Shown in pieces: positions 24,504-48,887 of a stretch of DNA of 63,134 bases. The translations under genes and the position numbers were made by a program. Under the pieces are notes generated by a model, which was not told the origin of the DNA, searched no databases, and saw nothing but the letters and a program-made list of their open reading frames with translations. The DNA is from Oxalobacteraceae bacterium. GTDB lineage: Bacteria; Pseudomonadota; Gammaproteobacteria; Burkholderiales; Burkholderiaceae_D. Every line of letters starts with the position of its first letter. Position 1 is the first letter of the stretch. The stretch covers positions 1 to 63,134 of the forward strand of contig JAIXQK010000176.1 of NCBI GenBank assembly GCA_027485795.1. Direction: 5' to 3'.

Positions 24504-25280
24504 ATGTCTCCCGCTGATGCGGCGTTAGTCGCCGCTGGCGCTTTTATGGCTGGCGCGATGAATGCCATCGCGGGTGGCGGTACGTTTTTCTCCTTTCCAG
24601 CGATGCTCATGGCGGGCGTGCCGCCGATCACTGCCAACGCAAGCAACTCCGTCGCGTTGTGGCCCGCCAGTCTCTCGAGTGCCTGGGCTTATCGCCACGA
24701 GGCGATGCGACATGGTCGCTGGGCGGTGCTACTGGCCATACTCTCGGTGATCGGTGGCTTGGTCGGTGGTTTGCTGCTGCTGGCAATTTCTAACCAAACC
24801 TTCATGCGATTGGTTCCCTGGCTCCTGCTGGTGGCCACCACCTTGTTTGCACTCAGCACGCAAGTCAGTCGCATCATTCGCTGGTTGAAACAGCGCCTGA
24901 ATATCGCGGTGTCGGAGCGACCCGGCAGTATTGGCGGCGCCCTGTTTCAATTAATGGTGGCGATCTACGGTGGCTTCTTCGGCGCCGGTATGGGCATTTT
25001 GACGTTGGCCGCGCTCTCGATTCAGGGTTTCGAGGACATGCAAGAGATCAATGCGCTGAAGAATCTGACTTCCGCCATGAACTACACCGTGGCGGCCCTC
25101 ACCTTCATCATCGCCGGCGCCATCAGCTGGCCGCATACCTTGGTGGCCTTGCTCACTGCAGCGATTGGTGGTTATGTGGGCGCAGCGTTTGCACGCAAGC
25201 TGCCGGGGCAATGGTTGAAGCGCTTGGTCATCGCCGTTGGTGCAACGTTGACGGTGGTGTATTTCATCAAAACCGCCTGA
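24504..25280 (+). CDS. TauE/SafE-family anion transporter
   Basis: A 258-residue permease with about eight membrane segments in two related halves, as in the TauE/SafE family of sulfite/sulfonate/organosulfur exporters. Repeat signatures are AGAMNAIAGGGTFFSFPAML in the first half and YGGFFGAGMGILTLAAL in the second, each with a Gly-rich re-entrant loop. There is no periplasmic partner nearby apart from the preceding one-helix protein. Substrate cannot be told from sequence. Confidence 0.85.
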   Translation: MSPADAALVAAGAFMAGAMNAIAGGGTFFSFPAMLMAGVPPITANASNSVALWPASLSSAWAYRHEAMRHGRWAVLLAILSVIGGLVGGLLLLAISNQTFMRLVPWLLLVATTLFALSTQVSRIIRWLKQRLNIAVSERPGSIGGALFQLMVAIYGGFFGAGMGILTLAALSIQGFEDMQEINALKNLTSAMNYTVAALTFIIAGAISWPHTLVALLTAAIGGYVGAAFARKLPGQWLKRLVIAVGATLTVVYFIKTA

Positions 25281-25514
25281 CCCTCGCGGGCGACGCAACC
25301 CGCCCGCATCCGCAACACCTCGGTTTCAAGTCCCCAAGCTGATGACGTGTCGGTTTTTCGACTTCGACCCAAGCAGCCCCGCTCCCACCCCCCAGCTGTA
25401 GCACACTATTTCTCCGTAACCCCATGTTTTTCATAAGTTTTTTACCTATGGCACAGACTTTGCAAAGACGGCGCCAACTATTGGCTTTATGGACCCGATT
25501 GACGGACTTTGCAC

Positions 25515-27353
25515 ATGCTGCTCGCGGAACACTCAGTAACCGACGCAATGCCGCTCACACCCCACAGCGAGGGTGGGGAGACGCTCACACTCGGGCAGTT
25601 GTTCGCCACAGCAGAGCAATTGTGCAAGGCTGGCCAGAGCACTGTCGCTGTCGCGCTGTACCAAGACTGGTTGACCGACGACATGCAGCCACTGCGGCAT
25701 CTCGCATTCTTTAATCTAGGTTCGCTGCTACAAAGTATTAGCGACACCACGGGAGCACTGAACGCCTACCAAAACTGTTTGGCGATACAACCCGGGTTTC
25801 CGCAAGCGGTGATCAACTTGGGTTTAGTACAGGAGAGCTTAGGTCAAACTGACGAGGCACTTCAGACATGGTCTACCCTGCCGGGGCAACGCCTGCTACA
25901 AGATCAGGCTACCGATCAGATGGTGACTTTAGCGCTGAACCATATCGGTCGCGTTCACGAGAATCACAAGCGCTACGATTTGGCCGAGCGTGCTTTACAT
26001 CAAAGCTTACTGATCAACCCAAAACAAGCGGCTGCGATTCAGCACTGGGTTCATATTCGACAAAAAGCCTGTATGTGGCCGGTATACCGAACACTGCCCG
26101 GGCTCAGTATGAATGACTTGCTGATGGCGACTTCACCGCTGGCCATGTTGGCGCTGAGTGACGACCCGGTACAACAACTACTGACATCCCATGCCTTTGT
26201 TGGCCGCACCTACAGTTTCAATGAGGAATATCTCGGACCGCGACAACCGTGGCCACACGCCAAGCTTAGGATTGGCTATGTCTCAGGCGACTTATGTGTG
26301 CATGCCGTTGGCTTGCTGCTGGCCGAGACATTAGAGGCCCATGATCGCGAGCGTTTCGAGATTTATGGCTATGACTTCAGCCCGGAGGATGGTAGCTCGC
26401 ATCGAATGCGACTCCTACGAGGCTTTGATCAAGTAAGACCTATTCATGGACTGACAGATCGCGAAGCAGCGCAACTGATAGTCAGCGATGAGATTGATGT
26501 ACTGATTGATCTGCATGGGCTATCCAACGGTGCCCGCCCCGGTATCTTCGCGCTACACCCGGCACCGCTGCAAGGGACATGGCTCGGCTTCATCGGTACG
26601 ACTGCAATGCCGTGGCTGGACTTTGTCATCACTGACCGGCAAGTTCACCCTGATTCAGACAGCCCGTATTTTTCAGAGAAACCCCTGTACGTCGACGGTA
26701 GTTTTCTGCCCTTATGCGCTCCCAGCGCGCCACCAAGACACGCAAGCCGTGAGGAATTCGGATTGCCCGCAGATGCCTTCGTGATGGCGTCTTTCGGTAA
26801 TGTCTACAAGCTGCATCGTGAGTTGTTTGATCGCTGGCTGTCGATTTTACGCAGAGCACCGCATGCGCTGCTCTGGTTGATCGACGATAACCCAAATGCG
26901 CGCAATCAGTTAATGGACTATGCGCAACGTGCGGGCGCAGATGTTTCTCGCATTCGCTTTAGCCCTCGCGTGCATCACGCCGAGTACCGGGCGTATTTGT
27001 CAGTCGCCGATCTGTTCCTCGATACCTGGCCCTATAACTGCGGCTCGACCACCAATGATGTGATCGGTGTCGGTACGCCGCTGCTGACCGTCACCGGCCA
27101 TAGCATGGTCTCGCGTATGGGGTCTAGCGTACTGCACGCACTGAACGCTGGCGCTATGGTGGCGCACGATTTGGATCACTACGAAGAAATCGCCGTCGCA
27201 CTCGCCCATGGCGAGATGAAGGCCCCAGAGATACAACTTACGCCGGCACTGGCCGAGCAACTGAATTATCGGCGCGTCCGATCACTTGAGAACGAATTGA
27301 TTCATCGATTAAGCACACTCGCTGCTAACAACACCAACCTAGTAGAGGTTTGA
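25515..27353 (+). CDS. O-GlcNAc-transferase-like glycosyltransferase (GT41) with TPRs
   Basis: A 612-residue protein. About three TPR units (AFFNLGSLLQS, AVINLGLVQES, ALNHIGRVHEN) are followed by a GT41/SPINDLY-type catalytic region: IGYVSGDLCVHAVG with the active-site His, DVLIDLHGLSNGARPGIFAL, FGNVYKLHRELFDRW with the UDP-binding Lys, and DTWPYNCGSTTNDVIGVGTP with the nucleotide-binding Thr/Asp set. Such enzymes attach a sugar to Ser or Thr of proteins in the cytoplasm. Its stop is one base before the start of a giant Ser/Thr-rich repeat protein, the natural candidate substrate. The ATG at 25515 is used; 25548 is possible. Confidence 0.85.
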   Translation: MLLAEHSVTDAMPLTPHSEGGETLTLGQLFATAEQLCKAGQSTVAVALYQDWLTDDMQPLRHLAFFNLGSLLQSISDTTGALNAYQNCLAIQPGFPQAVINLGLVQESLGQTDEALQTWSTLPGQRLLQDQATDQMVTLALNHIGRVHENHKRYDLAERALHQSLLINPKQAAAIQHWVHIRQKACMWPVYRTLPGLSMNDLLMATSPLAMLALSDDPVQQLLTSHAFVGRTYSFNEEYLGPRQPWPHAKLRIGYVSGDLCVHAVGLLLAETLEAHDRERFEIYGYDFSPEDGSSHRMRLLRGFDQVRPIHGLTDREAAQLIVSDEIDVLIDLHGLSNGARPGIFALHPAPLQGTWLGFIGTTAMPWLDFVITDRQVHPDSDSPYFSEKPLYVDGSFLPLCAPSAPPRHASREEFGLPADAFVMASFGNVYKLHRELFDRWLSILRRAPHALLWLIDDNPNARNQLMDYAQRAGADVSRIRFSPRVHHAEYRAYLSVADLFLDTWPYNCGSTTNDVIGVGTPLLTVTGHSMVSRMGSSVLHALNAGAMVAHDLDHYEEIAVALAHGEMKAPEIQLTPALAEQLNYRRVRSLENELIHRLSTLAANNTNLVEV

Positions 27354-27354
27354 T

Positions 27355-30300
27355 ATGGCAACTTCATCCGTCAACTCCAGCACAGCGGCAACGGTCTACG
27401 TACCGGTCACCACTGCGGAATTCGCAGCACTTGACTCTACGGCCGTCAGCAAGCTGACCACAACATCCATCAGCACGATGACGGCTGATCAGCTCTCCAA
27501 AATCTCGCCGGATGCACTGACTGGACTAAGCTCCAGCCAGCTCGCCGCACTTCCGACCGGATTGATCAGCTCGATCAGCACCGATCAGTTGGTGGCACTT
27601 GGCTCGAAACAGCTCGCAGGGCTGACGACCGGCGCTTCAGGCCAGATCAGACAGCTGAGTGCCAATCAGCTTAAAGCACTCAATACGGAACAAGTCAGTG
27701 GCCTCAGCTCGACGCAAATCGCCAGCCTCACGGCGAATCAGACCTCAGCATTACTACCAGAGCAGATCCCTTTCCTAAGTCTGACGGCTATCCCGGCACT
27801 CAGCACTGGGCAAATCGAGGCAATGACGAGTCAGCAATTCAGTGCTCTTAGCACAGCGCAGTTACGCAACCTGACGCCGGTACAACTTGCAGCGATTGAG
27901 AGTTCTGATCTTCTTTCCTTGAGTGAAGAACAAGTCGCCTCACTATCCGACACACAAGTTGCTGCACTCACCAGTGCGCAAGTTGCAAGTCTGCTGACCC
28001 CCACTGCTAAATTTTTTACGGTAACGCAGATGGGGAACCTGAATAATGACGCGGTTAAAGCGTTGACAACAGCGCAATTGCGAGAGCTGACTGAGGATCA
28101 AATTCGAGGCCTGAGTTCAACCCAAGTACAGAGCCTCACTTCTGAGCAACTGAATGGGCTACTTGATTACCAATTACAAGCCATCGAGACTGGCGACCTC
28201 GCTGCCATCGACACTTCCGTCTTTGCAGCACTGACGCCATCACAGATTGCCAACTTATCGACCGCACAAATCGCCGCAATTACCTCCGCTCAGATGCGGG
28301 CAATGAGTAATGACCAGATCAATGGCTTATCTGAGGATCAGATTGCGAGTGTACAGACCGGCGATATCGCGGCACTGTCGACGAGTCAGGTGAGAGCACT
28401 CACCGATCGCGTCATCTCTACATTGGGAAGTAATCAGATTCAGGCACTCAGCACCGCTGCAGTAGCAGCCCTGGATACATCACAGCTGGATGCCCTCAGT
28501 GAGGACCAAATACGTGCCATGACATCAGTTCAGGTGCGCTCACTCAGCGCAGCGCAACTGAATGGATTGGCACAATATCAGATGCAGGCGATCGAGACGG
28601 CTGACTTGGCTGCAATCTCGAACGCAACCATCGCCCAAATATCCAACAATGCTTTTGCTCGACTGTCGACTGGCCAAATTGTGGCGCTCACATCGGCACA
28701 GGTACGTTCACTCTCTCCAGCACAGATCAATACGCTATCAGCTGATCAAATCGCAGCATTTGAGACCGCTGATATTGCAGCCTTGACGCCAGCACAGGTA
28801 GGTGGCTTGAATAACACCGCCATAGCAGGTCTGACGGGCGCACAAGTCGCAGCAATTAGCCCACTGGCGGTGAAAGGCCTCAGTGCGCCTCAGATGCAGA
28901 CCCTTTCAGAGGATCAGCTGCGTGCTATGGGGTCGGCACAAATTCGTAATCTCAGTGCCGGACAAATTGGTGCCCTCAGCTTGGAACAATTGCAGGCGGT
29001 CGATCCTTCTGATCTAGCTACCGTGCCGCCTGCAACGATTGCCCAGATTCATCCCAATAGTTTCGCGTTCCTGACAACAGGTCAATTAGCTGGGCTAACC
29101 TCAGCGCAAGTGCGCGTACTGCGCGGAGATCAAATCAATGCACTTAGCGTTGATCAGCTTGGCAGTTTGGAGACGGTGGATGTCAACGCCTTGACCGCCT
29201 CACAAATCAAGAGCCTAAGTGGTAACACGATTGCCGCACTATCGACACAGCAGGTACAGGCATTTAGCACCAATGCGATCAGAGGTCTCGGCAATTCCCA
29301 ACTCAATGGACTATCGGATGAGCAATTACGTGCCTTAACGTCTTCTCAGATCCGAGTCATGACGCCGGCTCAGTTGAATCAATTGACGGAGGCGCAGTTA
29401 CAAGCGATTGATGTGGGTGATATTGCGGCACTACCGCCTTCAACCATTGGCTCGCTAAATGCAGCTAAGTTCGCCCAATTGACGACCACACAGCTTGCAG
29501 GCTTGAATGCCGACCAAGCAAGGGCGCTTTCACCCAGCCAACTCGCCAATCTGGGTACGGCACAATTCTCTAGCTTGAACACCGCCACCATTGCTGCGTT
29601 AAATCCGACTGCATTGACGCCGTTGACCTCAACGCTGCTACGGTCGCTGACTAGCTCGCAAGTGGCAGCGTTAAGCCCTTCGCAAATTCGGGCGTTTACC
29701 GTTTCGGCTGATATAAACAAATTATCCGGCACCCAATTCGGCCAACTTTCTTCTACGGCGATCTCAGCACTGACATCGACACAGGTAGGCTTTCTGGATG
29801 CCAGTGCAATCGGTCAAATCGCTACAACAAATAAACTTACTTCGTTGACGCCGACAGCTATTGGCAGTGTGCGACCGACGGCGCTGAGCGCACTTACCTC
29901 GGATCAAATTGGTAATCTGACTACTGCTCAGCTGCGAGGGCTGACGGCAGCACAGCTCGATGCAGTGACATCTCAGTTACCTGGACTGGACAGCACCGAT
30001 ATCGCGGCGCTTAACCCTTCGGCTCTGAGACTGACTGCGGCAGTTATCGGTCAGTTGAGCTCCGTCCAAGCGGCAGCGCTCACCAATGATCAGCTCCGTG
30101 GGTTGTCCCCAATACAGTTGAACAGCCTGACCAATGCCGCCATTTTAGGGTTACGGTCCACTCAAATACAAGCACTAACGACAACCCAGGTTTCAGAGCT
30201 GAGCAGTACCCAACTGAACCGTCTGAGCTCGGCACAAGTACGCGCGTTGCGTCCCACGCAGCTATTAGCGCTGATGGCAAGCGCTTCGGATTCGAAACCC

Positions 30301-30594
30301 GCTCAGATTCCAGATTTGAGTAGCTCCGTGATATCACAACTGACGACATCGCAAGTCCGGAGCCTATCGAATGCACAGATTCAAGTATTAACTTCAAGTC
30401 AGCTACCGAGACTAAACACCGCTCAAGTGGCGGCATTCACGGGCAGTCAAATCAGCGCGTTAAGTGACTCACAACTAGCCAGCTTTATCAACGCTCAGCT
30501 GAGTGCTTTGACCGCCGCTCAAAAATCGGTATTAACGAGCACTCAAACGGCGGCACTTTCTCCCGCACAGAGAACCCTACTGGGGATTGCCTGA
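27355..30594 (+). CDS. Giant octapeptide-repeat protein
   Basis: A 1079-residue protein built, after about 20 Ser/Thr-rich residues, of roughly 130 tandem octapeptides with the consensus (S/T)-x-x-Q-(I/V/L/M)-x-x-(L/I/M), for example STAQIAAI, TSAQVRSL, SEDQIRAM. There is no Cys, Trp is absent and no classical signal peptide is present. Regular spacing of Gln and aliphatic residues suggests a solenoid. Almost every octad offers Ser or Thr, fitting glycosylation by the GT41 enzyme whose gene ends one base upstream; GAGG precedes the ATG. A strong terminator follows. Similar repeat proteins occur in other proteobacteria as I recall, without known function. Secretion route not evident. Confidence 0.88.
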   Translation: MATSSVNSSTAATVYVPVTTAEFAALDSTAVSKLTTTSISTMTADQLSKISPDALTGLSSSQLAALPTGLISSISTDQLVALGSKQLAGLTTGASGQIRQLSANQLKALNTEQVSGLSSTQIASLTANQTSALLPEQIPFLSLTAIPALSTGQIEAMTSQQFSALSTAQLRNLTPVQLAAIESSDLLSLSEEQVASLSDTQVAALTSAQVASLLTPTAKFFTVTQMGNLNNDAVKALTTAQLRELTEDQIRGLSSTQVQSLTSEQLNGLLDYQLQAIETGDLAAIDTSVFAALTPSQIANLSTAQIAAITSAQMRAMSNDQINGLSEDQIASVQTGDIAALSTSQVRALTDRVISTLGSNQIQALSTAAVAALDTSQLDALSEDQIRAMTSVQVRSLSAAQLNGLAQYQMQAIETADLAAISNATIAQISNNAFARLSTGQIVALTSAQVRSLSPAQINTLSADQIAAFETADIAALTPAQVGGLNNTAIAGLTGAQVAAISPLAVKGLSAPQMQTLSEDQLRAMGSAQIRNLSAGQIGALSLEQLQAVDPSDLATVPPATIAQIHPNSFAFLTTGQLAGLTSAQVRVLRGDQINALSVDQLGSLETVDVNALTASQIKSLSGNTIAALSTQQVQAFSTNAIRGLGNSQLNGLSDEQLRALTSSQIRVMTPAQLNQLTEAQLQAIDVGDIAALPPSTIGSLNAAKFAQLTTTQLAGLNADQARALSPSQLANLGTAQFSSLNTATIAALNPTALTPLTSTLLRSLTSSQVAALSPSQIRAFTVSADINKLSGTQFGQLSSTAISALTSTQVGFLDASAIGQIATTNKLTSLTPTAIGSVRPTALSALTSDQIGNLTTAQLRGLTAAQLDAVTSQLPGLDSTDIAALNPSALRLTAAVIGQLSSVQAAALTNDQLRGLSPIQLNSLTNAAILGLRSTQIQALTTTQVSELSSTQLNRLSSAQVRALRPTQLLALMASASDSKPAQIPDLSSSVISQLTTSQVRSLSNAQIQVLTSSQLPRLNTAQVAAFTGSQISALSDSQLASFINAQLSALTAAQKSVLTSTQTAALSPAQRTLLGIA
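28177..29808 (+). repeat. 408-bp higher-order repeat inside the octapeptide gene
   Basis: A landmark coding Q-A-(I/V) followed by an acidic octad (QAIETGDL, QAIETADL, QAVDPSDL, QAIDVGDI) begins at 28177, 28585, 28993 and 29401, exactly 408 bp (136 residues, 17 octads) apart. Within each unit the order of atypical octads is kept: a TIAQI-like octad, an F-containing octad, then TSAQVR and DQI octads. A shorter related unit begins at 27889, 288 bp earlier. Confidence 0.8.
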
Positions 30595-30611
30595 TCTCAG
30601 GCTAGCAGGAA

Positions 30612-30640
30612 TCCCCAGCGAATACTCGTTGGGGGGTTTT
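30612..30640 (+). terminator. Terminator of the GT41/octapeptide operon
   Basis: TCCCCAGCGA, loop ATAC, TCGTTGGGGGG then TTTT, with one G-T wobble pair in a nine-pair stem; 18 bp after the stop codon. Confidence 0.8.
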
Positions 30641-30705
30641 ACCCGTTAGATGAATTCACCACATCCACAAGTGCGTTAACACCCACTCGCTAAGGTAACG
30701 CGACG

Positions 30706-30738
30706 CAAAAAAATTGCCCGCGCACTGCGCGGGCAAAA
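30706..30738 (-). terminator. Terminator of the small minus-strand gene
   Basis: On the minus strand GCCCGCGC, loop AGT, GCGCGGGC, then AATTTTTTT: an eight-pair GC stem with a U tract, 38 bp after the stop of the gene at 30776. Confidence 0.88.
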
Positions 30739-30775
30739 CCCAAAACTCCGTTTCCGAAGAGCAGGGAGGAGACAA

Positions 30776-30979
30776 TCAGTTCACGAACGCGACGCGGTCT
30801 GCAGTGTTACGCAGCGTGGCGCGGAAATCTTTACCTTGCTCGGTGGGTGGTACCCAGCCATGACGGCGCCAGATGGACTGCACGTTGTCAAAGGCGCCAC
30901 GACCCTGATGCGACACCGGAGTATTCGCAGCCATTGCCTTGGCTGTTGTTTCGATAATCATTCTTGCTTGATCGTACAT
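30776..30979 (-). CDS. Small hypothetical protein
   Basis: A 67-residue soluble protein starting with MYDQARMIIETTAKAM, chosen because AAGGGAG lies just upstream. The rest is basic and polar (GRGAFDNVQSIWRRHGWVPP). It has its own terminator, so it is a separate short transcription unit convergent with the octapeptide operon. No signal peptide or known family. Confidence 0.7.
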   Translation of the reverse strand: MYDQARMIIETTAKAMAANTPVSHQGRGAFDNVQSIWRRHGWVPPTEQGKDFRATLRNTADRVAFVN

Positions 30980-31393
30980 TGGGGCTCCCTTCCTAAATGG
31001 TGTCGGATCGATTCCGAATGCGAGAAAAGGCAGCAATTTATATGCCAATTAAAACGTCGAGATCCCGACAGTTGCTCGAAACCTGCGCAATCATTCTCTT
31101 AATCAGTACGTTTTGAATGGGCACGCCACAAAAGACGGTATGACCATCATGATTGCAATTTTTGCAAGTTCGAGATGGTGTCAATCACTCGTCCCGCCCC
31201 TACTCATCATTGATAGCCAAGGCTAGCCAACCATGGCATGTTATTTAGATAGCAATTAAACGAAGAAAAGTTGCTTTCTCATACGCAAAGTTTCTATCCA
31301 TGCAAAGATAAACAGAACTCGCTTGGTCGAGAGCATCCATCTTTACTCATAAAAATAATAATCAGCGCCGCCCTTATGCGGAGAACAAATACG
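30980..31393. other. Intergenic region before the outer-membrane-protein-like gene
   Basis: A 414-bp AT-rich stretch with no gene-like frame. It holds an interrupted palindrome, TTGCAA-TTT-TTGCAA (31153-31167), a possible operator between the divergent genes. No promoter could be called with confidence. Confidence 0.4.
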
Positions 31394-32299
31394 ATGCCAA
31401 GACCTATCCTGCGCCGTCTATGCGCCTTTCTGCTCGCCAGCGCAGCCGGCCCAGTGCTCGCCGCGCAAAATGATCAGCAGCCGACCGATTTCATTTCACT
31501 GCCAAATGGAACTGCCAATGTCGCACTGTATGCCGCTCGGCAGTCCTTCGACGGGCTTTGGAAAAACGGGATCAAGACCCCACGAGTAGAAGGCTCAACG
31601 AATCTAACGGTGCTTCGTGCAAACTGGCACTTCTCACTAGGCGAAGAAGGTAAATACACGATTGCGCCATTAGTAGCGCTATCCGCGATCGAGACAAACG
31701 CTAATGCGCCATCGGCGCCCCTGCTGAGGGGCACAGCATCGGGCGTCGGTGACCTCCGCTTGGGTACAGCTTTCTGGTTTTACAGTGATCACGCCAATCG
31801 CGAATATCTGATGGCAACTGTGATCGTGTCCTTGCCTACCGGCGCCTATACGCCGACGCAATCCGTCAATATCGGTGAGAACCGAACGAAGACCGTGCTC
31901 TCTTTAGGATGGATGCAACCGCTGGGGTCACGCTGGGTTCTCGACCTCGTACCGGAGGTCGCATTTTTTGGTGACAATAAAGAATACATCGGCATTAATC
32001 GGCTCGGGAATAGCCGACTTAGTCAGGATATGGCATATGCAATGAGCGGGACGTTGCGCTACAAAGCAACCCAAGCTATCCATTGGTATGGCACTGCTCA
32101 AGTGAACCGTGGCGGGGCGACACAGCTAAATGGCGCTGTATTGACCGGCGCACCCGACAATACTCGTTTAGCACTAGGTGCTCTGATTTTCAGCTCAGAT
32201 AAAAGTCAGATTCAGCTACGTTACGCCAGAGATGTACAGATTGAAAATGGCTTTCGAAATACTGGCGAAATCCTGTTGCGATGGTCGACTGTTTTCTGA
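31394..32299 (+). CDS. Outer-membrane transporter-like protein (phenol MetA-type)
   Basis: A 301-residue exported protein. The ATG at 31394 follows GCGGAGA and starts a signal peptide (ILRRLCAFLLASAAGPVLA). The mature part alternates polar and hydrophobic residues in beta strands and has the features of the MetA-pathway phenol degradation-like family: TNLTVLRANWHF, GVGDLRLGTAFWFY, VSLPTGAYTP, GWMQPLGSRWVLDL, and a terminal strand ILLRWSTVF ending in Phe, as for outer-membrane barrels. Probably a small-molecule channel. Its neighbours do not reveal the substrate. Confidence 0.75.
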   Translation: MPRPILRRLCAFLLASAAGPVLAAQNDQQPTDFISLPNGTANVALYAARQSFDGLWKNGIKTPRVEGSTNLTVLRANWHFSLGEEGKYTIAPLVALSAIETNANAPSAPLLRGTASGVGDLRLGTAFWFYSDHANREYLMATVIVSLPTGAYTPTQSVNIGENRTKTVLSLGWMQPLGSRWVLDLVPEVAFFGDNKEYIGINRLGNSRLSQDMAYAMSGTLRYKATQAIHWYGTAQVNRGGATQLNGAVLTGAPDNTRLALGALIFSSDKSQIQLRYARDVQIENGFRNTGEILLRWSTVF

Positions 32300-32324: not shown

Positions 32325-32633
32325 TCAAGTCCTGACATCCAGCTTCTGACCCATCGTCGATTTTGATGATGTAGGTGCCACGCCACCGCGGTCGTACGTA
32401 AGTTTCCGCAACAACTCACCTGTGGCACCATCAGAAACAGTCACCGTCATGGAATGATTGCGGTGATCAACAGTAAACGCCATCTTTGATGTCAGCGTCG
32501 ACGCATTTGCGCTAGTACTCTCCTGTCTTTGTTGCCGCTCAACGGTCTGTTTCATCAAGTTGCGACTGTTGGTCGGAACCTGCCGTGACGGCAGTGCCGA
32601 GGTCGGGAGTTTAGAGGCTGTCGCATTCATCAT
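32325..32633 (-). CDS. FlaG-like protein
   Basis: A 102-residue protein. The N-terminal half is polar and probably disordered; the C-terminal half (MAFTVDHRNHSMTVTVSDGA, TGELLRKL) resembles FlaG domains, which read like F-x-V-D...V-x-V-x-D-x-x-T-G-E-x-I-R. FlaG proteins affect filament length in flagellated bacteria. It starts 12 bp after the TerB-domain gene ends on the same strand, so it is probably part of that unit rather than a flagellin operon; no flagellin is in the window. Similarity is moderate. Confidence 0.6.
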   Translation of the reverse strand: MMNATASKLPTSALPSRQVPTNSRNLMKQTVERQQRQESTSANASTLTSKMAFTVDHRNHSMTVTVSDGATGELLRKLTYDRGGVAPTSSKSTMGQKLDVRT

Positions 32634-32645
32634 GATTCACCCACA

Positions 32646-35555
32646 TCACAACTGCAAAAACAGCCAATAACCATTGGCAGTGAGTAGCAGGCTTAATACG
32701 CCGATAGCAGTCGACACATGGAGCATCCGCATTGATCGGAACAGCACGCCCCAAAATGCCATACCAAGGCCAAGCAATACGATCGATTTTGCATAGATGA
32801 ACCACTGCTGACGCTCGGCGGCGACGGCACTCGCTCCCTGGTGACTCTGAGCGACTGCCATCAATTCCTGCTTACGTTGTTCAAGAAAGTTATCCGCCTT
32901 GGCGCGATCTGAAAGTTCTTTATCATCGCCGCCCGAGGTCGATCCACTTGAAGCGGTCCCGGTTGACGCTACTGCAACCGTACCCGCAGACCCGACTGCA
33001 CCAGCGGCCTGAACAACGCCTTGCTGTAGCTTTTCGACCGTCAAAATGACTGACTCTGGTGCGATCCGGTAGACCGTTTGCTGTACGCTCGCCATCTGAT
33101 GCACGATACGCGCATCAGTTGCGATATTTTCATTCACAACAAAACCGTGCTGGGTAACAGACTCACCCACCATCGTTACACCATAGGTGAGAAAGAGTGC
33201 AGGAAGTAGTACCGCACTTGAATATCGCAACCTCTTATTCAAGTTTGCTTCTTCGCTACTCGCTGGTGCCTTGCCTTGGCTTTCGCTCATGATGGGTCCT
33301 CCTTCGTCTGATGCCAACAGTGTGCGTTTGCCGTCATCCCAGGTATTGGGCGCTGTTAGGGTTGCAGTATTGCCGACGATAAGTGCTGGCATTGGTACCG
33401 GCTGGTGCACGAACGGCAATATCGGTAGCAATGGCAACCTGCTGGCTGATGTGATTGATTTTGCAGACCGTATCGCCTCGACGTAGCCAAAAATCTTAAA
33501 GGTTCGATCGCGCGTTGCTTCCATGCGCTTGTCGATGCCGCCAATCTGAATCGGACCGTCGGATGATTCATTCGCTGTCGGATCGAAAGCGTACCTAGCA
33601 TCCGACAACCGTCGGTTTGCAGGTAGCCCATCCGCGTCCGTGAGCTCTCGTCGTTCAGCAGGCTTTTTTGCATCGCGAAGACGTTGGCTCAAGCCCGCAG
33701 AGATTCCCGGCGGCAGCGAACTACCCGTGCCACCCGACGTATCTTGAAGCGCACGAATCTCGCCTGGACCTTCAGTAGCTGCAAGTGCGGTGTTGGTATT
33801 AGTAGCACCTTCCTTATCACGAAGCGCGCGCGGGTCTGCCGGACCATCGTTTTTTGTTTTGGCTTTGTCCGAACGGTTATCGGTATCGGTATCGGCTACT
33901 GCTCGTTGGTCTGCCGGGCCATCACTTTTACCTACAGCCTTACCAGAGATGGCTTCAGCATCAGCATCGCGTGCTGCACGTTGGTCTACGGGACCATCGC
34001 TTTTACCAGTAGTCTTCTTAGAACTGTTATCGGCGTCAGCATCGCGTGCTGAACGCTGGTCTGCCGGACCATCGCTTTTACCAGTGGTCTTCTTGGAACT
34101 GCTATCGGCGTCAGCATCGCGTGCTGAACGCTGGTCAGCCGGACCATCGCTTTTACCAGTGGTCTTCTGGGAACTGCTATCAGCATCGGCATCACGTACT
34201 GCGCGTTGGTCTGCTGCTCCGTCATTTTTATCTAAGGATTTTTTCGCACTGATGTCAGCATCGGTATCGCGTACCGCACGTTGATCTGCCGGCCCATTAT
34301 TTTTAGCTGAGGCTTTGGTCGAATTGATATCGGCATCGGTATCGCGCAAGGTGCGAATGTCCGACTTGCCTTCAACTTTTAATGCTTCGTCGCTAGCAAG
34401 TTCTTTCGTGCGTGCGTTATTCTGAAGCGATTCCAGCGAGGTATCGGCATCGAGCTCTTTTGACAGCCGATCAGTGTTCTGCCGCATCGTGTTCGAGATA
34501 CGGGTTTCCATTTCCGATGGCTGCTCTGCTCCCTTTCTAGTGCCACTCTGGGTCTGACGTGCCTGATCCTCACCTTTACCGGCCTCACCTGTCTCCTCTT
34601 CCCACTCTTTCTTGCGTTGGAATACCACCCCTTCTTCCTGCTTGCTAGTTCGAAGGGCTGGTATATCGGATTTCTTGGCAACGACGGATACACGCGTCGC
34701 CTCTTCTGGCACATCATTTTTGAGAAAAATAATGTTCAGATAGCGCTCAAATTCCTTCTCGCTGACTTCGAATGAGACGAGCATGCGGCGAAACAAATCG
34801 CTTTCAACCTTCACCACCTTGTGGTCGGACATCATGGTGTCACACGCATTCAAAAGAATGCACAAGCGCTGGCGCTCATCAAGCATTGGCGCTGCCAAAG
34901 CAAAGAACTGCGGCGCGCGCACCTTGCTCACATAGCGTAGTCCCGCCTTCAGCAGTGCGGACGACCCACCCACAGCCGCATTCAGCCTTCCGACTTCTTC
35001 CTCCGCCATCGAGCCGTCCGCTGCCATCATGTAAATCAGGGACACAACTAATGCCAATGGTGGGGTGAGCGTAGCTGTATTCGCGGCAATATCGAAGTCG
35101 CCGAAAATAGACGTCTTATCCTTGATCGTAATTGCGTCGAAGTAGGGCTGAAAGCTTGCCTTAGCAAAGCCCATGGCAGCCAGCATTCGGTTAAAAAGCT
35201 GCTCCTCAGCTGCTACCATCACACCGTCTGCCATCAGCGAATCGCAGACGTTCATCAGCAAGCAAAGCCGAACCCTTTGATCCAGCAAAGCCGGAGCATC
35301 CTTCAGAAACTGATCGACGCTGTTTTTTTCTGAATACGCAATTGCTCGCTTCAGCGTATCAGCATCAGTACCGACGACCGCTTGTAGTTGGCTGGCTTCA
35401 TATTCGGAGATATCAGTATCGACTGCCATCATGTACAAAATGGCCGCCACAACACAGAGCCGAGGCGTCAGCGCGGGAGATTCAGATATCTCTACTGACG
35501 CGCCGCCCTCTTCGAGCGATTGAACTAACTGTGGGAAACGGTCAGGTGATCCCAT
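32646..35555 (-). CDS. Large double-TerB protein with 25-residue repeats and C-terminal membrane segments
   Basis: A 969-residue protein with no signal peptide. Two TerB-like helical domains (about residues 30-140 and 165-270) share the pattern LYMMAVDTDISEYEASQL and IYMMAADGSMAEEEVGRL with conserved acidic residues. A long charged, probably disordered linker follows, holding about nine 25-residue repeats (GPADQRSARDADADSSSKK type, residues about 395-600). The C-terminal third has a membrane segment LLPALFLTYGVTMVG, a loop with coiled-coil character, and two more segments (SIVLLGLGMAFWGVL; IGVLSLLLTANGYWLFL). TerB-like domains are linked to tellurite and stress systems and membrane sensing. 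This architecture was not recognised. Confidence 0.75.
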   Translation of the reverse strand: MGSPDRFPQLVQSLEEGGASVEISESPALTPRLCVVAAILYMMAVDTDISEYEASQLQAVVGTDADTLKRAIAYSEKNSVDQFLKDAPALLDQRVRLCLLMNVCDSLMADGVMVAAEEQLFNRMLAAMGFAKASFQPYFDAITIKDKTSIFGDFDIAANTATLTPPLALVVSLIYMMAADGSMAEEEVGRLNAAVGGSSALLKAGLRYVSKVRAPQFFALAAPMLDERQRLCILLNACDTMMSDHKVVKVESDLFRRMLVSFEVSEKEFERYLNIIFLKNDVPEEATRVSVVAKKSDIPALRTSKQEEGVVFQRKKEWEEETGEAGKGEDQARQTQSGTRKGAEQPSEMETRISNTMRQNTDRLSKELDADTSLESLQNNARTKELASDEALKVEGKSDIRTLRDTDADINSTKASAKNNGPADQRAVRDTDADISAKKSLDKNDGAADQRAVRDADADSSSQKTTGKSDGPADQRSARDADADSSSKKTTGKSDGPADQRSARDADADNSSKKTTGKSDGPVDQRAARDADAEAISGKAVGKSDGPADQRAVADTDTDNRSDKAKTKNDGPADPRALRDKEGATNTNTALAATEGPGEIRALQDTSGGTGSSLPPGISAGLSQRLRDAKKPAERRELTDADGLPANRRLSDARYAFDPTANESSDGPIQIGGIDKRMEATRDRTFKIFGYVEAIRSAKSITSASRLPLLPILPFVHQPVPMPALIVGNTATLTAPNTWDDGKRTLLASDEGGPIMSESQGKAPASSEEANLNKRLRYSSAVLLPALFLTYGVTMVGESVTQHGFVVNENIATDARIVHQMASVQQTVYRIAPESVILTVEKLQQGVVQAAGAVGSAGTVAVASTGTASSGSTSGGDDKELSDRAKADNFLEQRKQELMAVAQSHQGASAVAAERQQWFIYAKSIVLLGLGMAFWGVLFRSMRMLHVSTAIGVLSLLLTANGYWLFLQL
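33745..34366 (-). repeat. 75-bp coding tandem repeat
   Basis: About nine in-frame units of 75 bp in the TerB-protein gene. The central ones are nearly identical (GPADQRSARDADAD, then SSKKTTGKSD); the outer ones have diverged, as expected for ongoing expansion and contraction in the middle. Confidence 0.85.
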
Positions 35556-43735: not shown

Positions 43736-44233
43736 TCACAGAAAACGATCCAGCAGCTTTCTTGATGCGCGATCGAGCGCACGGATGTCATGCACACGGT
43801 AGGTAACGCCATGGCTATCTGTGATGATGAGTCCGCCGTCGCGCAGCCGACGAATATCTTCTTCGCCCTTTAGCACAAAGCTGTTTAAGCCACGATCGGT
43901 CGTCACCGTCCAGGTACTGGGTGTCGCAAACGTACTAACGTCGACTAGCCGATTAATGACAGGCAAAAACTCCCGCTGCGCAATCTCTTGTTCGATCATG
44001 GCGCGAGTTTCAGCATCCAGCATACTGAGCTGATTAATAAAGACCAGCTCATGCCCATCGGTGCTGAGCAGTGAGACTTGCTCACCCGGCGCGTCGATGG
44101 GAAAAGCCTGCGCCGGTACGACACCAACATGCACCTCACCTGCCTCATCGGTAAAGTTGAGTCGGCCATAGCTATCACGACGCAGCCGGTGCGCTACCGG
44201 CATCCAGGCCTTGCCACTGGATTCATCGATCAT
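43736..44233 (-). CDS. Cyanophycin metabolism-associated DUF1854 protein
   Basis: A 165-residue soluble protein of the DUF1854 family, known to accompany cyanophycin genes: GRLNFTDEAGEVHVGVVPAQ and APGEQVSLLSTDGHELVFIN at the start, then LVDVSTFATPSTWTVTTDRG, EEDIRRLRDGGLIITD and the terminal DIRALDRASRKLLDRFL. Its ATG overlaps the stop of the ABC transporter gene (ATGA), so the two proteins are likely made in step and work together. The role in cyanophycin handling is known only by association. Confidence 0.85.
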   Translation of the reverse strand: MIDESSGKAWMPVAHRLRRDSYGRLNFTDEAGEVHVGVVPAQAFPIDAPGEQVSLLSTDGHELVFINQLSMLDAETRAMIEQEIAQREFLPVINRLVDVSTFATPSTWTVTTDRGLNSFVLKGEEDIRRLRDGGLIITDSHGVTYRVHDIRALDRASRKLLDRFL

Positions 44234-46605
44234 GCGGCCCCCGCTTTTGCCAAAGGAATTCGCAGCGGGTCCGGTGTTTCATCTTCAGTGTCGACGTTGC
44301 GTGCCTGCGCCTCGTACAAGCGCCAGTAAGCACCTTGCTGGGCTATCAACTCATCATGTGAGCCGATCTCGACCACCTCGCCACGCTCAAGCACAATCAA
44401 TCGATCGGCTCGGCGCAATGTCGATAAGCGGTGCGCAATCGCAATCGTGGTTCGGCCTTGAACCAGGTTATCGAGTGCTTTTTGAATTTCTTTTTCAGTC
44501 GCGGTATCGACTGACGAGGTGGCTTCATCCAACATAAGAATATGCGGATTAATCAGTAGCGCACGCGCAATTGAAATACGCTGACGCTCACCACCGGAAA
44601 GCCCCTGCCCGCGCTCACCCACAATCGAATCGTAGCCATGACGTAGACGCAGGATGAACTCGTGGGCATGCGCCGCTCGCGCGGCAGCGATGACCTCGGC
44701 GCGCGTTGCATCTGGCTTGCCGTAGGCAATGTTCTCGGCAATCGTGCCGTGAAACAGGAAAGGCTCTTGCAGTACCAAGCCTATGTGACGTCGATAATCA
44801 GCCACCGAGAAGCGACGCAAATCAACGCCGTCAACAGTAATCGCGCCGTCGGTGACATCGTAGAAACGGCAGATCAGGTTAACCAGCGTGCTCTTACCGG
44901 AGCCGCTATGGCCCACCAGACCGATCATTTCGCCCTGCCGGATCTCGAGGTTGATACCCTTCAGGATTCGACGACTACCGTAGCGGAAACCGACATCTCG
45001 CAGCGTGATGGTGCCGGGCGCGTTTGCTACTGGCACCGGGTTCGCAGGCTCAGGCACGCTTGAACTGTGGTCAAGAATATCGAAAATCCGCTTCGCACCT
45101 GCCGCTGCTTTTTGGGTATGCGACACGATGCGACTCATGGTGTCGAGACGACCGTAGAAACGACCAATGTATGCAATGAACGCCACCAGCACGCCTACCG
45201 TCACACCGTGGTGAATCACTAGCCAAATACCAAAACCCCACACAATCAGCAGCCCGACTTCAGTCAGCATAGTGACAGTCGGCGCAAACAAGCTCCAGGT
45301 ACGGTTCAGCTTGTCATTGACCGCGAGGTTATGCATGTTCGCTTCGCGAAAGCGTTGCGACTCACGGCCCTCTTGTGCAAAGGCTTTCACCACGCGAATA
45401 CCGGGGATGGTGTCCGCGAGTACGTTGGTCACATCACCCCAGATACGGTCGATTTTTTCAAAGCCGGTACGCAAACGGTCACGTACGGAATGAATCAACC
45501 ACATGATCAATGGCAGCGGTAGTAGCGTGACCACGGTCAGCCACGGATTGATCGTAAACAGAACCACAGTGGTCATCGCCAGCAGCAGCACATCGGTTGC
45601 AAAATCGAGTGCGTGCAGCGACAAGAATATGCAAATTCGGTCGGATTCATTACCAATCCGCGCAATCAAATCGCCCGTACGTTTGGCGCCGAAATAATCG
45701 AGCGACAGCGTCATCAGGTGATTAAACGTCGCCGTGCGCAAATGCGCGCCGATTCGCTCAGATACCAGTGCAAGGAGATAGGTTCGCCACCAACCAAGCC
45801 CCCATGCCAACATCGCCGCCACCAACAAGCCCGAGAGGTATAAAACCACGTCTTGGGTATCGATCTGCGCACCAGTTTGCTGCGGGATCAGAATTTCATC
45901 CATCAGCGGCATCGACAGATAGGGCGGCACCATCAATGCTGCGGTCGAGGCGAGCGTGAGGAAGAAGCCGAGTAGCAGCTGCATTTTGTACGGCTTGGCA
46001 AAACGCCACAGCCGTAGCAGCACCCAGGTCGACACCGGCTCGAGTAATTCACGGTGGCATACCGGGCACTCCTCGCTTTGATCTGGCAGCAAGGCCTGAC
46101 AGCTCGGACAACGCGCCCCCGACTCTTCGGGCGCCAGGGATTGACCGCTGCGCGCAGCCTGTACTTTTTCGAAATTCTGAATGAAACGCAGCGCACTCAC
46201 CTCTTCTGCCAGCGTGAAACGCCAGCGCGCGACAGCGCCTTGCTGGTCATGCAGCGCGAGCGTAGCGACGCCCCCATGATCGGTGTGGTGCAGCGTGAGT
46301 GCGGGTTGGAGCGCCCACTCAGACCACCCCTCGCCATCTGAATGGCTTATCATTCGCTCGGTCGTCAGCAGCAAGCGGCTGGACGCAAATTGCAGTGCCG
46401 GGTTCAGATCCGGTTCCAGCGTGGCGAGTACATGTTCATGCGCGCGCAGTGGCGGGCTATCCCGATGGTCGTGCGGCGCGGCGTGCGCAGCAGGTGCTAC
46501 ATGAGATGGGGCGCTAGGCGGCATGAATGCGGAACGAAGTGTCGCGAGCTGATAATCAAATGAATTGAACCGAAGCGTTTTGCTGCTGTCGCAGACTGCG
46601 CGCAT
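44230..46605 (-). CDS. Cyanophycin metabolism-associated ABC transporter with zinc ribbon
   Basis: A half-transporter of up to 791 residues. The N-terminal 190 residues are soluble and include a zinc-ribbon pair, CPSC and CPVC (about residues 164-182), unusual for exporters. Then come six membrane segments of the type I exporter fold, with intracellular loops (TGDLIARIGNESDRI). The nucleotide-binding domain has Walker A GLVGHSGSGKSTLV, Q loop GLVLQEPFLF, signature LSGGERQRISIARAL and Walker B ILMLDEATSSVD. It probably forms a homodimer. It is divergent from cphA' with 68 bp between. The start is uncertain: the ATG at 46605 or an internal one at 46524. Substrate unknown, perhaps a cyanophycin precursor or product. 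Confidence 0.85.
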   Translation of the reverse strand: MRAVCDSSKTLRFNSFDYQLATLRSAFMPPSAPSHVAPAAHAAPHDHRDSPPLRAHEHVLATLEPDLNPALQFASSRLLLTTERMISHSDGEGWSEWALQPALTLHHTDHGGVATLALHDQQGAVARWRFTLAEEVSALRFIQNFEKVQAARSGQSLAPEESGARCPSCQALLPDQSEECPVCHRELLEPVSTWVLLRLWRFAKPYKMQLLLGFFLTLASTAALMVPPYLSMPLMDEILIPQQTGAQIDTQDVVLYLSGLLVAAMLAWGLGWWRTYLLALVSERIGAHLRTATFNHLMTLSLDYFGAKRTGDLIARIGNESDRICIFLSLHALDFATDVLLLAMTTVVLFTINPWLTVVTLLPLPLIMWLIHSVRDRLRTGFEKIDRIWGDVTNVLADTIPGIRVVKAFAQEGRESQRFREANMHNLAVNDKLNRTWSLFAPTVTMLTEVGLLIVWGFGIWLVIHHGVTVGVLVAFIAYIGRFYGRLDTMSRIVSHTQKAAAGAKRIFDILDHSSSVPEPANPVPVANAPGTITLRDVGFRYGSRRILKGINLEIRQGEMIGLVGHSGSGKSTLVNLICRFYDVTDGAITVDGVDLRRFSVADYRRHIGLVLQEPFLFHGTIAENIAYGKPDATRAEVIAAARAAHAHEFILRLRHGYDSIVGERGQGLSGGERQRISIARALLINPHILMLDEATSSVDTATEKEIQKALDNLVQGRTTIAIAHRLSTLRRADRLIVLERGEVVEIGSHDELIAQQGAYWRLYEAQARNVDTEDETPDPLRIPLAKAGAA

Positions 46606-46673
46606 TGTCGCCGAAGTCGGCCGCTTAGTCCTAACATTCCGACATCTTACCTTTTTGCCCGAATCCCGATCCG

Positions 46674-48884: not shown

Positions 48885-48887
48885 AGC

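Follow-up and report, generated by a model that had tools for sequence, protein, structure and literature searches.

A TPR-type GT41 glycosyltransferase gene and its ALTTAQ octapeptide-repeat neighbor: a candidate enzyme-substrate pair

What does a GT41 glycosyltransferase modify when its gene is followed, a single base later, by a gene for a giant octapeptide-repeat protein? This question is raised by two adjacent genes within a 63,134 bp stretch of Oxalobacteraceae DNA (the window), which a preliminary description had read as a candidate self-contained glycoprotein system. We favor the interpretation that the two genes encode an enzyme and its substrate, dedicated to cytoplasmic O-glycosylation of the repeat protein, and we give this a probability of about 0.6. 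The gene identities, their adjacency, the predicted fold, the conserved linkage and a mostly linked GT41 clade were all observed here; from these we infer the glycosylation, its sites and donor sugar, and the secretion and surface location of the product.

Organization of the locus

The features of the locus are as follows.

25515..27353, + strand: GT41 (OGT/SPINDLY-like) glycosyltransferase gene (ORF list; PF13844, 4e-61; PDB relatives OGT, XcOGT and SPINDLY)
25689..26048, + strand: TPR region of the GT41 protein, approximately residues 61-180 (TPR_1, TPR_2, TPR_19 and TPR_7 matches)
26253..27209, + strand: GT41 catalytic region, approximately residues 249-567 (human OGT alignment; whole-genome matches)
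27354..27354, no strand: single base separating the GT41 gene and the repeat gene (one base also in the close relative L009)
27355..30594, + strand: gene for an ALTTAQ octapeptide-repeat solenoid protein of 1079 aa, repeat-only type (PF20080, 6e-156; AF2 model of residues 340-660)
30613..30640, + strand: weak terminator-like hairpin and T-run 3' of the repeat gene (folding versus shuffles, z -1.18)

The GT41 frame is open from 25509 to 27353, with either a TTG at 25509 or an in-frame ATG at 25515 as its start, and the TGA at 27351-27353 is followed by the ATG of the repeat gene at 27355, in agreement with the one-base gap described previously. The terminator that both genes were thought to share is represented by a hairpin at about 30613-30634 and a short T-run, but it is weak; 26 of 200 shuffled sequences fold as well or better, and the hairpin is not among the calls of a terminator scan. 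An Rfam search over 25000-31500 gave no match.

The product of the first gene matches PF13844 (Glyco_transf_41) with 207 bits against a cut-off of 25. TPR_1 and TPR_2 (both at residues 142-172) and TPR_19 (79-127) score above their Pfam cut-offs, TPR_7 also matches at residues 66-93, and the TPRs precede the catalytic region in the manner of OGT and SPINDLY. Human OGT aligns over residues 251-399 and 413-566, covering both catalytic lobes, and whole-genome GT41 matches lie at 26253-26705 and 26742-27212. The earlier assignment of TPRs plus an intact OGT/SPINDLY catalytic region is thus well founded. At the column of human Cys917 the window enzyme has a tyrosine, as does SPY at Y744, the equivalence of these two positions being given in PMC9715652.

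The octapeptide-repeat protein

The second gene product matches PF20080 (ALTTAQ_rpt) in 31 stretches with a total of 506 bits against a cut-off of 26.4, and its hydrophobic residues have a lag-8 autocorrelation of 0.74, far above chance. The octad repeat is therefore real, although the well-formed octads that can be counted number 110-111 rather than the approximately 130 reported initially (1079/8 would permit about 135). Inspection by eye reveals no signal peptide, as noted before, and only 28 aa remain after the last repeat run, such that there is no long non-repeat C-terminal tail. In this respect the protein differs from most of its relatives, since a tail of 100-370 aa follows the repeats in 33 of the 45 mapped rows that include a C-terminus (one row repeats L009). 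Literature searches on the ALTTAQ name found no paper and no function, and none found a description of a GT41-ALTTAQ pair.

An AF2 model of residues 340-660 (321 residues, 24-row alignment) has a pLDDT of 92.4, and nearly every octad forms one short helix of a solenoid, the architecture for which the preliminary description had sought a structure prediction. A full-length fold computed without an alignment was poor (pLDDT 62.7) and was set aside in favor of this model. Foldseek comparison with the PDB gave weak matches only, the best being mesothelin (TM 0.33), and a word search of a mesothelin paper (PMC2628672) found nothing on bacteria.

Ser or Thr occupies octad position 2 in 70% of octads, position 3 in 46%, and one or the other in 85%, so the claim that nearly all octads carry a hydroxyl residue at one position was too strong. 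All 39 helices in the model begin at octad position 3 and position 2 is therefore the helix N-cap, where capping alone can favor Ser/Thr. The same octad is found by sequence (phmmer 3e-14) in HeliScrew4 (PDB 9zem), a 120 aa protein of solved structure that is presumably a designed one, judging from its name and regularity. With position 2 acting as the N-cap in the model, HeliScrew4 sharing the octad, and the hydroxyl far from invariant, we reject the regular Ser/Thr ladder as evidence of acceptor sites.

These observations invite the view that the hydroxyls are structural helix caps only, with the protein unglycosylated and the TPR domain of the GT41 protein binding the solenoid as a partner or chaperone. 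Of the 33 non-Ser/Thr residues at position 2 of the window protein, 16 are N, D or G (N 6, D 5, G 5, with E 5 and R 4 also represented), and Ser/Thr at position 3 does not differ with GT41 linkage, with medians of 85% in 22 linked ORFs and 81.5% in 28 unlinked ones (p = 0.35). However, when GT41-near ORFs are considered more widely, position 2 is most often substituted by E, K and A, and N, D and G account for only 32%, a pattern that capping alone does not predict; capping may thus be only part of the story. Moreover, both GT41 catalytic lobes align with OGT, which would be needless in a mere binding partner, and position 3 (helix N1) is mostly Pro in HeliScrew4 but mostly Ser/Thr in the natural proteins, rounding to 100% in eight of 43 counted ORF rows. 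We consider the caps-only view very improbable. Position 3 has a median of 38% Ser/Thr in seven ORFs from the two GT41-less genomes G011 and G016 and 84% in the other 43 (p = 0.0016), a contrast on which we do not lean because both genomes belong to one genus.

Linkage of GT41 and ALTTAQ genes in related genomes

GT41 genes (E <= 1e-30) are present in 83 of 84 ALTTAQ-positive genomes (E <= 1e-9) of the family as opposed to 53 of 308 others. Genus g334 weighs heavily in the 83 of 84, and a genus-level comparison (12 of 12 ALTTAQ-positive genera versus 15 of 32 others) offsets part of that. No GT41 was found in the ALTTAQ genomes G016 and G011, the latter 75% complete. In the window genome (95% complete) a single GT41 and a single ALTTAQ ORF were found, and these are the two neighbors.

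Proximity was assessed in 53 genomes, comprising 42 ALTTAQ genomes and 11 more, with G011 and G016 left out as lacking GT41. The 42 include 32 of the 73 detected when the window's genus and G021 are set apart (18 of 25 from other genera and 14 of 48 from genus g334), plus three and seven from other searches. A GT41-ALTTAQ pair no more than 10 kb apart occurs in 24 of the 53, among the matches listed and the locus maps, and because ALTTAQ positions were taken from these, some distances are over-estimated. The expected number is 0.9 if each genome is given one ALTTAQ ORF and 4.3 if it is given five, and the maximum in 200,000 random draws was 15, GT41 gene numbers in this null being about half of the match rows. 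Among 50 mapped ALTTAQ ORFs, 21 have a GT41 gene within 10 kb, which is not an unbiased rate since the loci were chosen partly for looking close; the remaining 29 have no tagged GT41, and many are cut by contig ends. Conversely, 20 GT41 loci chosen from beyond the linked set have no ALTTAQ ORF (the GT41 ORF being tagged in 19).

A tree of 43 GT41 proteins contains a clade of 21 with 100/100 support that holds 16 of the 20 ALTTAQ-linked rows, where linked denotes an ALTTAQ ORF within approximately 17 kb on the same contig (16 kb at L062, about 7 kb at L044 and 7.5 kb at L031). The other members of the clade are one unlinked row (L092, with ALTTAQ elsewhere in its genome) and four rows in no group. 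The tree requires five changes of label compared to 13.3 when labels are shuffled, and none of 500 shuffles was as low. The GT41 of L079, hidden on the map by an overlapping antisense ORF, was left out. Taken together with the co-occurrence and proximity counts, this mostly linked clade answers affirmatively the question of whether GT41 genes lie beside homologues of the repeat protein more often than chance.

Neighboring genes and alternative targets

The closest tree neighbors of the window GT41 are L009 and then L013 and L010, both of which adjoin flagellin at contig ends, and in the genome of L013 a flagellin cluster is accompanied by an ALTTAQ fragment (L101). Of the 50 mapped ALTTAQ ORFs, 10 also have flagellar filament genes no more than 10 kb away (checked for L023, and by Pfam for L026, L033, L095, L098 and L104), and SPINDLY-type GT41 enzymes are described from Enterobacteriaceae flagellin islands in PMC4875605. 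The GT41 could therefore be a flagellin glycosyltransferase of the type found in such islands, with ALTTAQ genes residing in or near the same late-flagellar or surface-glycan islands without being its substrate. We think this unlikely, as all four Flagellin_N matches in the window genome are on contigs C115 and C44 whereas its single GT41 is with ALTTAQ; around 17 of the 21 GT41-near ALTTAQ ORFs no flagellar gene is tagged over 10 kb, albeit with limited flanks; and flagellin is present at only one of the 20 unlinked GT41 loci. Within the window no flagellin gene was found, just a weak FlaG-like ORF at 32325-32633.

Both genes could instead be cargo of variable surface-glycan islands, their adjacency reflecting co-inheritance and the GT41 acting on several secreted proteins or glycans. 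Genes resembling nucleotide-sugar, aminotransferase and other glycosyltransferase genes are seen by eye at L044, L052, L055 and L061-L062, gene order and orientation vary among loci, and some ALTTAQ-linked GT41s (L050, L053 and L030/L031) fall outside the main clade. Yet that clade retains its ALTTAQ link across three families (f1, f141 and f185), and GT41 is the sole glycosyltransferase family among the 28 window ORFs scanned, so that hitch-hiking of this kind seems quite unlikely.

Nine of the 50 mapped ALTTAQ ORFs (at L024, L041, L048, L049, L051, L055, L056 and L098) have type I ABC and HlyD genes no more than 10 kb away, and all nine have C-terminal tails, of 126-303 residues. No such genes are beside the window pair, and an OEP-HlyD-ABC set is found on contig C71. 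The similarity rule for ABC genes wrongly tagged a window ORF at about 44230-46605 (181 bits), which we reject as an exporter since its neighbors are a DUF1854 gene and cyanophycin-synthetase-like genes; every other ABC gene tagged near ALTTAQ has HlyD next to it. Neither an exporter nor flagellin adjoins the window pair. The term self-contained does not generalize, as several relatives' loci share type I genes and some have further glycan genes or flagellin.

A putative glycosylation system

Across many related bacteria GT41 and ALTTAQ genes tend to occur together, which suggests a sugar coating of the repeat protein by the enzyme. In the enzyme-substrate model, the TPR-GT41 protein would act as a cytoplasmic O-glycosyltransferase whose TPR region brings freshly synthesized ALTTAQ chains to the catalytic site. 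Sugar from a presumed donor would be attached to Ser/Thr residues that lie exposed, the likeliest sites being those where helices begin (octad positions 2-4), either ahead of or during folding of the chain into its extended screw of short helices. Several relatives may then export the product, a presumed giant protein of the cell surface, through a type I secretion system encoded in the locus. The repeat protein of the window lineage has neither a C-terminal tail nor a neighboring exporter, and any export may take another route. A more specific version, in which the sugar is set at a fixed octad hydroxyl (position 3, the first helical residue) to give a fold-spaced stripe on a giant glycoprotein rod, type I-exported in some relatives, is tentative and on the whole rather doubtful.

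A close parallel in arrangement is HMW1C/TpsA (HMW1), in which the gene for a GT41-family enzyme adjoins that of its large secreted substrate, and in which an AAD fold takes the place of TPRs in the enzyme (PMC3983070). HMW1C makes N-linkages and serves two-partner secretion. The window enzyme differs in its TPRs, its OGT/SPINDLY-type catalytic region and its partner, a helical solenoid. The first category of HMW1C-like enzymes has tpsA/tpsB neighbors, whereas the GT41 neighbor here is the ALTTAQ gene and none of the 28 window ORFs scanned matches a two-partner secretion family; type I genes accompany some of the ALTTAQ relatives. OGT, XcOGT and SPINDLY share the TPR and GT41 catalytic architecture, XcOGT and SPINDLY being among the matches, but the window GT41 is distinguished by being encoded beside a repeat protein. 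Flagellin glycosylation islands (PMC4875605) are similar in that a SPINDLY-type GT41 shares its locus with a secreted protein, but no flagellin gene was found in the window.

The conserved tie to one GT41 clade provides a first testable function for ALTTAQ proteins, and the pair would be the O-linked equivalent of HMW1C/TpsA, in which a TPR-type GT41 is encoded together with its large substrate. Site choice by OGT/SPINDLY enzymes could also be studied on the octad repeat, which would serve as a clean and countable substrate. The window protein belongs to the ALTTAQ family by its Pfam score, and ORFs of this family reach 5,692 aa as open frames.

The GT41 and ALTTAQ genes

The genome containing the window comprises 3.24 Mb in 183 contigs, the window being contig C108, and two adjoining ORFs within it are considered here:

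25509-27353: GT41 glycosyltransferase ORF, with an ATG at 25515
27355-30594: ALTTAQ octapeptide-repeat ORF

The one-base gap reported in the preliminary description is confirmed by these coordinates and recurs at locus L009 of the nearest relative found, an Oxalobacteraceae MAG whose GT41 is 96% identical. Pfam searches identify TPRs and a GT41 catalytic region in the first product, and PF20080 (ALTTAQ) in the second (6e-156). Alignment of the window GT41 with human OGT spans both catalytic lobes, and the columns around SGDLCVH and NVYKLH together with the C-lobe D, which we take to be catalytic or donor-binding residues in OGT, are retained. The corresponding SPINDLY columns are catalytic or donor-binding residues according to PMC9715652, and the human Cys917 column is occupied by Tyr in the window GT41, like Y744 of SPINDLY in the same source. 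Because of this Tyr, the sequence suggests that the donor sugar need not be UDP-GlcNAc.

We consider it fairly probable, at roughly 60%, that the two products form a dedicated enzyme-substrate pair, a reading underpinned by gene identity, fold prediction, and conserved linkage. GT41 would O-glycosylate the ALTTAQ protein in the cytoplasm, with sites predicted at the helix starts. Both families are known, and a literature search did not find their linkage described; the pair would be a variant of the enzyme-beside-its-large-substrate arrangement known from HMW1C (PMC3983070).

Linkage of GT41 and ALTTAQ genes

The idea raised earlier, that GT41 genes lie beside homologues of the repeat gene more often than chance, is borne out by both proximity and co-occurrence. 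A pair is found within 10 kb in 24 of the 53 genomes having both (11 genera by the search tool's labels), whereas random placement predicts 0.9 genomes at one ALTTAQ ORF each and 4.3 at five. Counting the window's own genome throughout, PF20080 is present in 13/56 relatives (E ≤ 1e-3), 84/392 family genomes (E ≤ 1e-9), 4/369 class genomes (E ≤ 1e-7), and 8/398 phylum genomes (E ≤ 1e-9). GT41 is present in 31 of these 56 relatives, in 136/392 family genomes (E ≤ 1e-30), and in all 42 ALTTAQ genomes tested; within the family it occurs in 83/84 ALTTAQ-positive genomes versus 53/308 others (p about 4e-47), and at genus level in 12/12 versus 15/32 (p = 0.001). The sole ALTTAQ-positive family genome in which no GT41 was found at these thresholds is G016, and none was found in G011, which is ALTTAQ-positive at a weaker threshold. 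Caulobacter vibrioides, which likewise carries GT41 and flagellin, gave the only ALTTAQ match among 14 control genomes. In G836, G859, G872 (L053), G883, and G895, two to four GT41 catalytic regions stand in tandem within one open frame of 2300-3800 aa.

GT41 adjoins ALTTAQ with no type I genes between in the window and at L009, L023, L029, L039, L046, L050, L052, L053, L054, and L105, and with one intervening ORF, again without type I genes, at L011 and L012. GT41, ALTTAQ, and type I genes share one stretch at L024, L030, L048, L051, and L056, and lie further apart at L031 and L047; at a third kind of locus ALTTAQ has no GT41 in view.

A tree of 43 GT41 sequences places the window in a clade of 21 (support 100/100) holding 16 of the 20 rows linked to an ALTTAQ ORF (within about 17 kb on the same contig), four ungrouped rows (L010, L013, L014, and L035) whose contigs end near the GT41 gene, and one unlinked row, L092 of G021, a genome with ALTTAQ genes elsewhere. 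The linked sequences outside this clade are L050, L053, L030, and L031. The link label requires 5 changes on the tree versus 13.3 when shuffled, with 0/500 shuffles as low.

After L009, the rows closest to the window GT41 are L013 and L010, both adjoining flagellin; ALTTAQ is present in the genomes of L013 and L014, and none was seen in that of L010. GT41 lies within 10 kb of 21 of 50 mapped ALTTAQ ORFs, flagellar filament genes of 10, and type I ABC genes of 9, values that are not unbiased rates because some loci were chosen for mapping for their closeness. The main rival to a dedicated pair is that flagellin is the GT41 target. The rechecked frequency of flagellin genes near ALTTAQ lowered our confidence in the pair slightly, and flagellin is described as a GT41 context in Enterobacteriaceae (PMC4875605); however, in the window genome flagellin lies apart from its only GT41.

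The flagellar filament genes constitute a second ALTTAQ association (L023, L026, L029, L033, L041, L051, L056, L095, L098, and L104), with tags confirmed by Pfam in L023, L026, L033, L095, L098, and L104. A protein of ~270 aa also recurs beside GT41 or ALTTAQ (L023:4775-5605, L024:18154-18978, L029:11125-11955, L051:6309-7106, L092:10615, and L098:12188); the L024 and L029 members were matched by eye, and that of L024 has no Pfam match.

The octad repeat and its predicted fold

With octads numbered L1-S/T2-x3-x4-Q5-I/L/V6-x7-A8, Ser or Thr occupies position 2 in 70% of the 110 window units counted, position 3 in 46%, and position 4 in 34%. The earlier proposal of Ser/Thr at one fixed position in nearly all octads thus survives as an enrichment at position 2, but not as a near-universal feature. 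An AlphaFold2 model of residues 340-660, from 24 aligned segments, contains 39 helices over 321 residues (pLDDT 92.4), all 39 beginning at octad position 3 with position 2 as N-cap. Q5 with the N-cap forms a capping-box-like pattern, and the L1/I6 pair a hydrophobic-staple-like one. The octad is common to HeliScrew4 (3e-14), a solved protein of 120 residues (PDB 9zem); since position 2 is the modelled N-cap and this solved structure has the same octad, the regular placement of Ser/Thr may primarily have a structural basis.

Helix capping does not demand Ser/Thr at position 3, where HeliScrew4 carries mostly Pro; its share there is 100% after rounding in 8 of the 43 ORF rows counted, which hints at glycosylation. 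Against this hint, the share is only 46% in the window, and GT41 linkage does not predict the position 3 value. Among the several ALTTAQ ORFs of each genome, it is 11-67% in G016 (L036-L038) and 15, 38, and 86% in G011 (L095-L097).

A Foldseek search of the model against the PDB gave human mesothelin as the best, weak matches (E 3e-5, TM 0.33), perhaps reflecting only a common short-helix solenoid style. In the ALTTAQ ORF of L046 (G1127), octads that combine E or D in position 2 with D in position 5 mostly return at intervals of 5 or 7 octads (40 or 56 residues), which may mark superhelical pitch.

C-terminal forms and export

Tailed ALTTAQ proteins, with 100-370 residues past the repeats, account for 33 of the 45 rows with a C-terminus, and many tails contain a D-x-N-G-D-G calcium-site-like motif. 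A tail is present in each of the nine ALTTAQ ORFs that have a type I ABC gene no more than 10 kb away, and the tailed relatives would secrete their product. Repeat-only forms are found in the window and at L009, L011, L023, L029, and L050, these six having GT41 within 1 kb; at L036 and in one ORF of L038, both in G016; and at L059 and L060, related at phylum level only, where GT41 is elsewhere in the genome and none is in view. L012 is intermediate. No exporter genes were seen beside the window pair; an OEP-HlyD-ABC set on contig C71 of the same genome lies next to the beginning of an ORF that has no Pfam match and is cut by the contig end.

Other features of the window

32325-32633, minus strand: weak FlaG-like ORF (PF03646 at 9e-4, under the cut-off); the flagellins of this genome lie elsewhere
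32646-35555, minus strand: TerB-domain protein of 969 aa with a 25-residue (75-bp) tandem repeat
43736-51503: ABC transporter and DUF1854 gene adjoining two cyanophycin-synthetase-like genes
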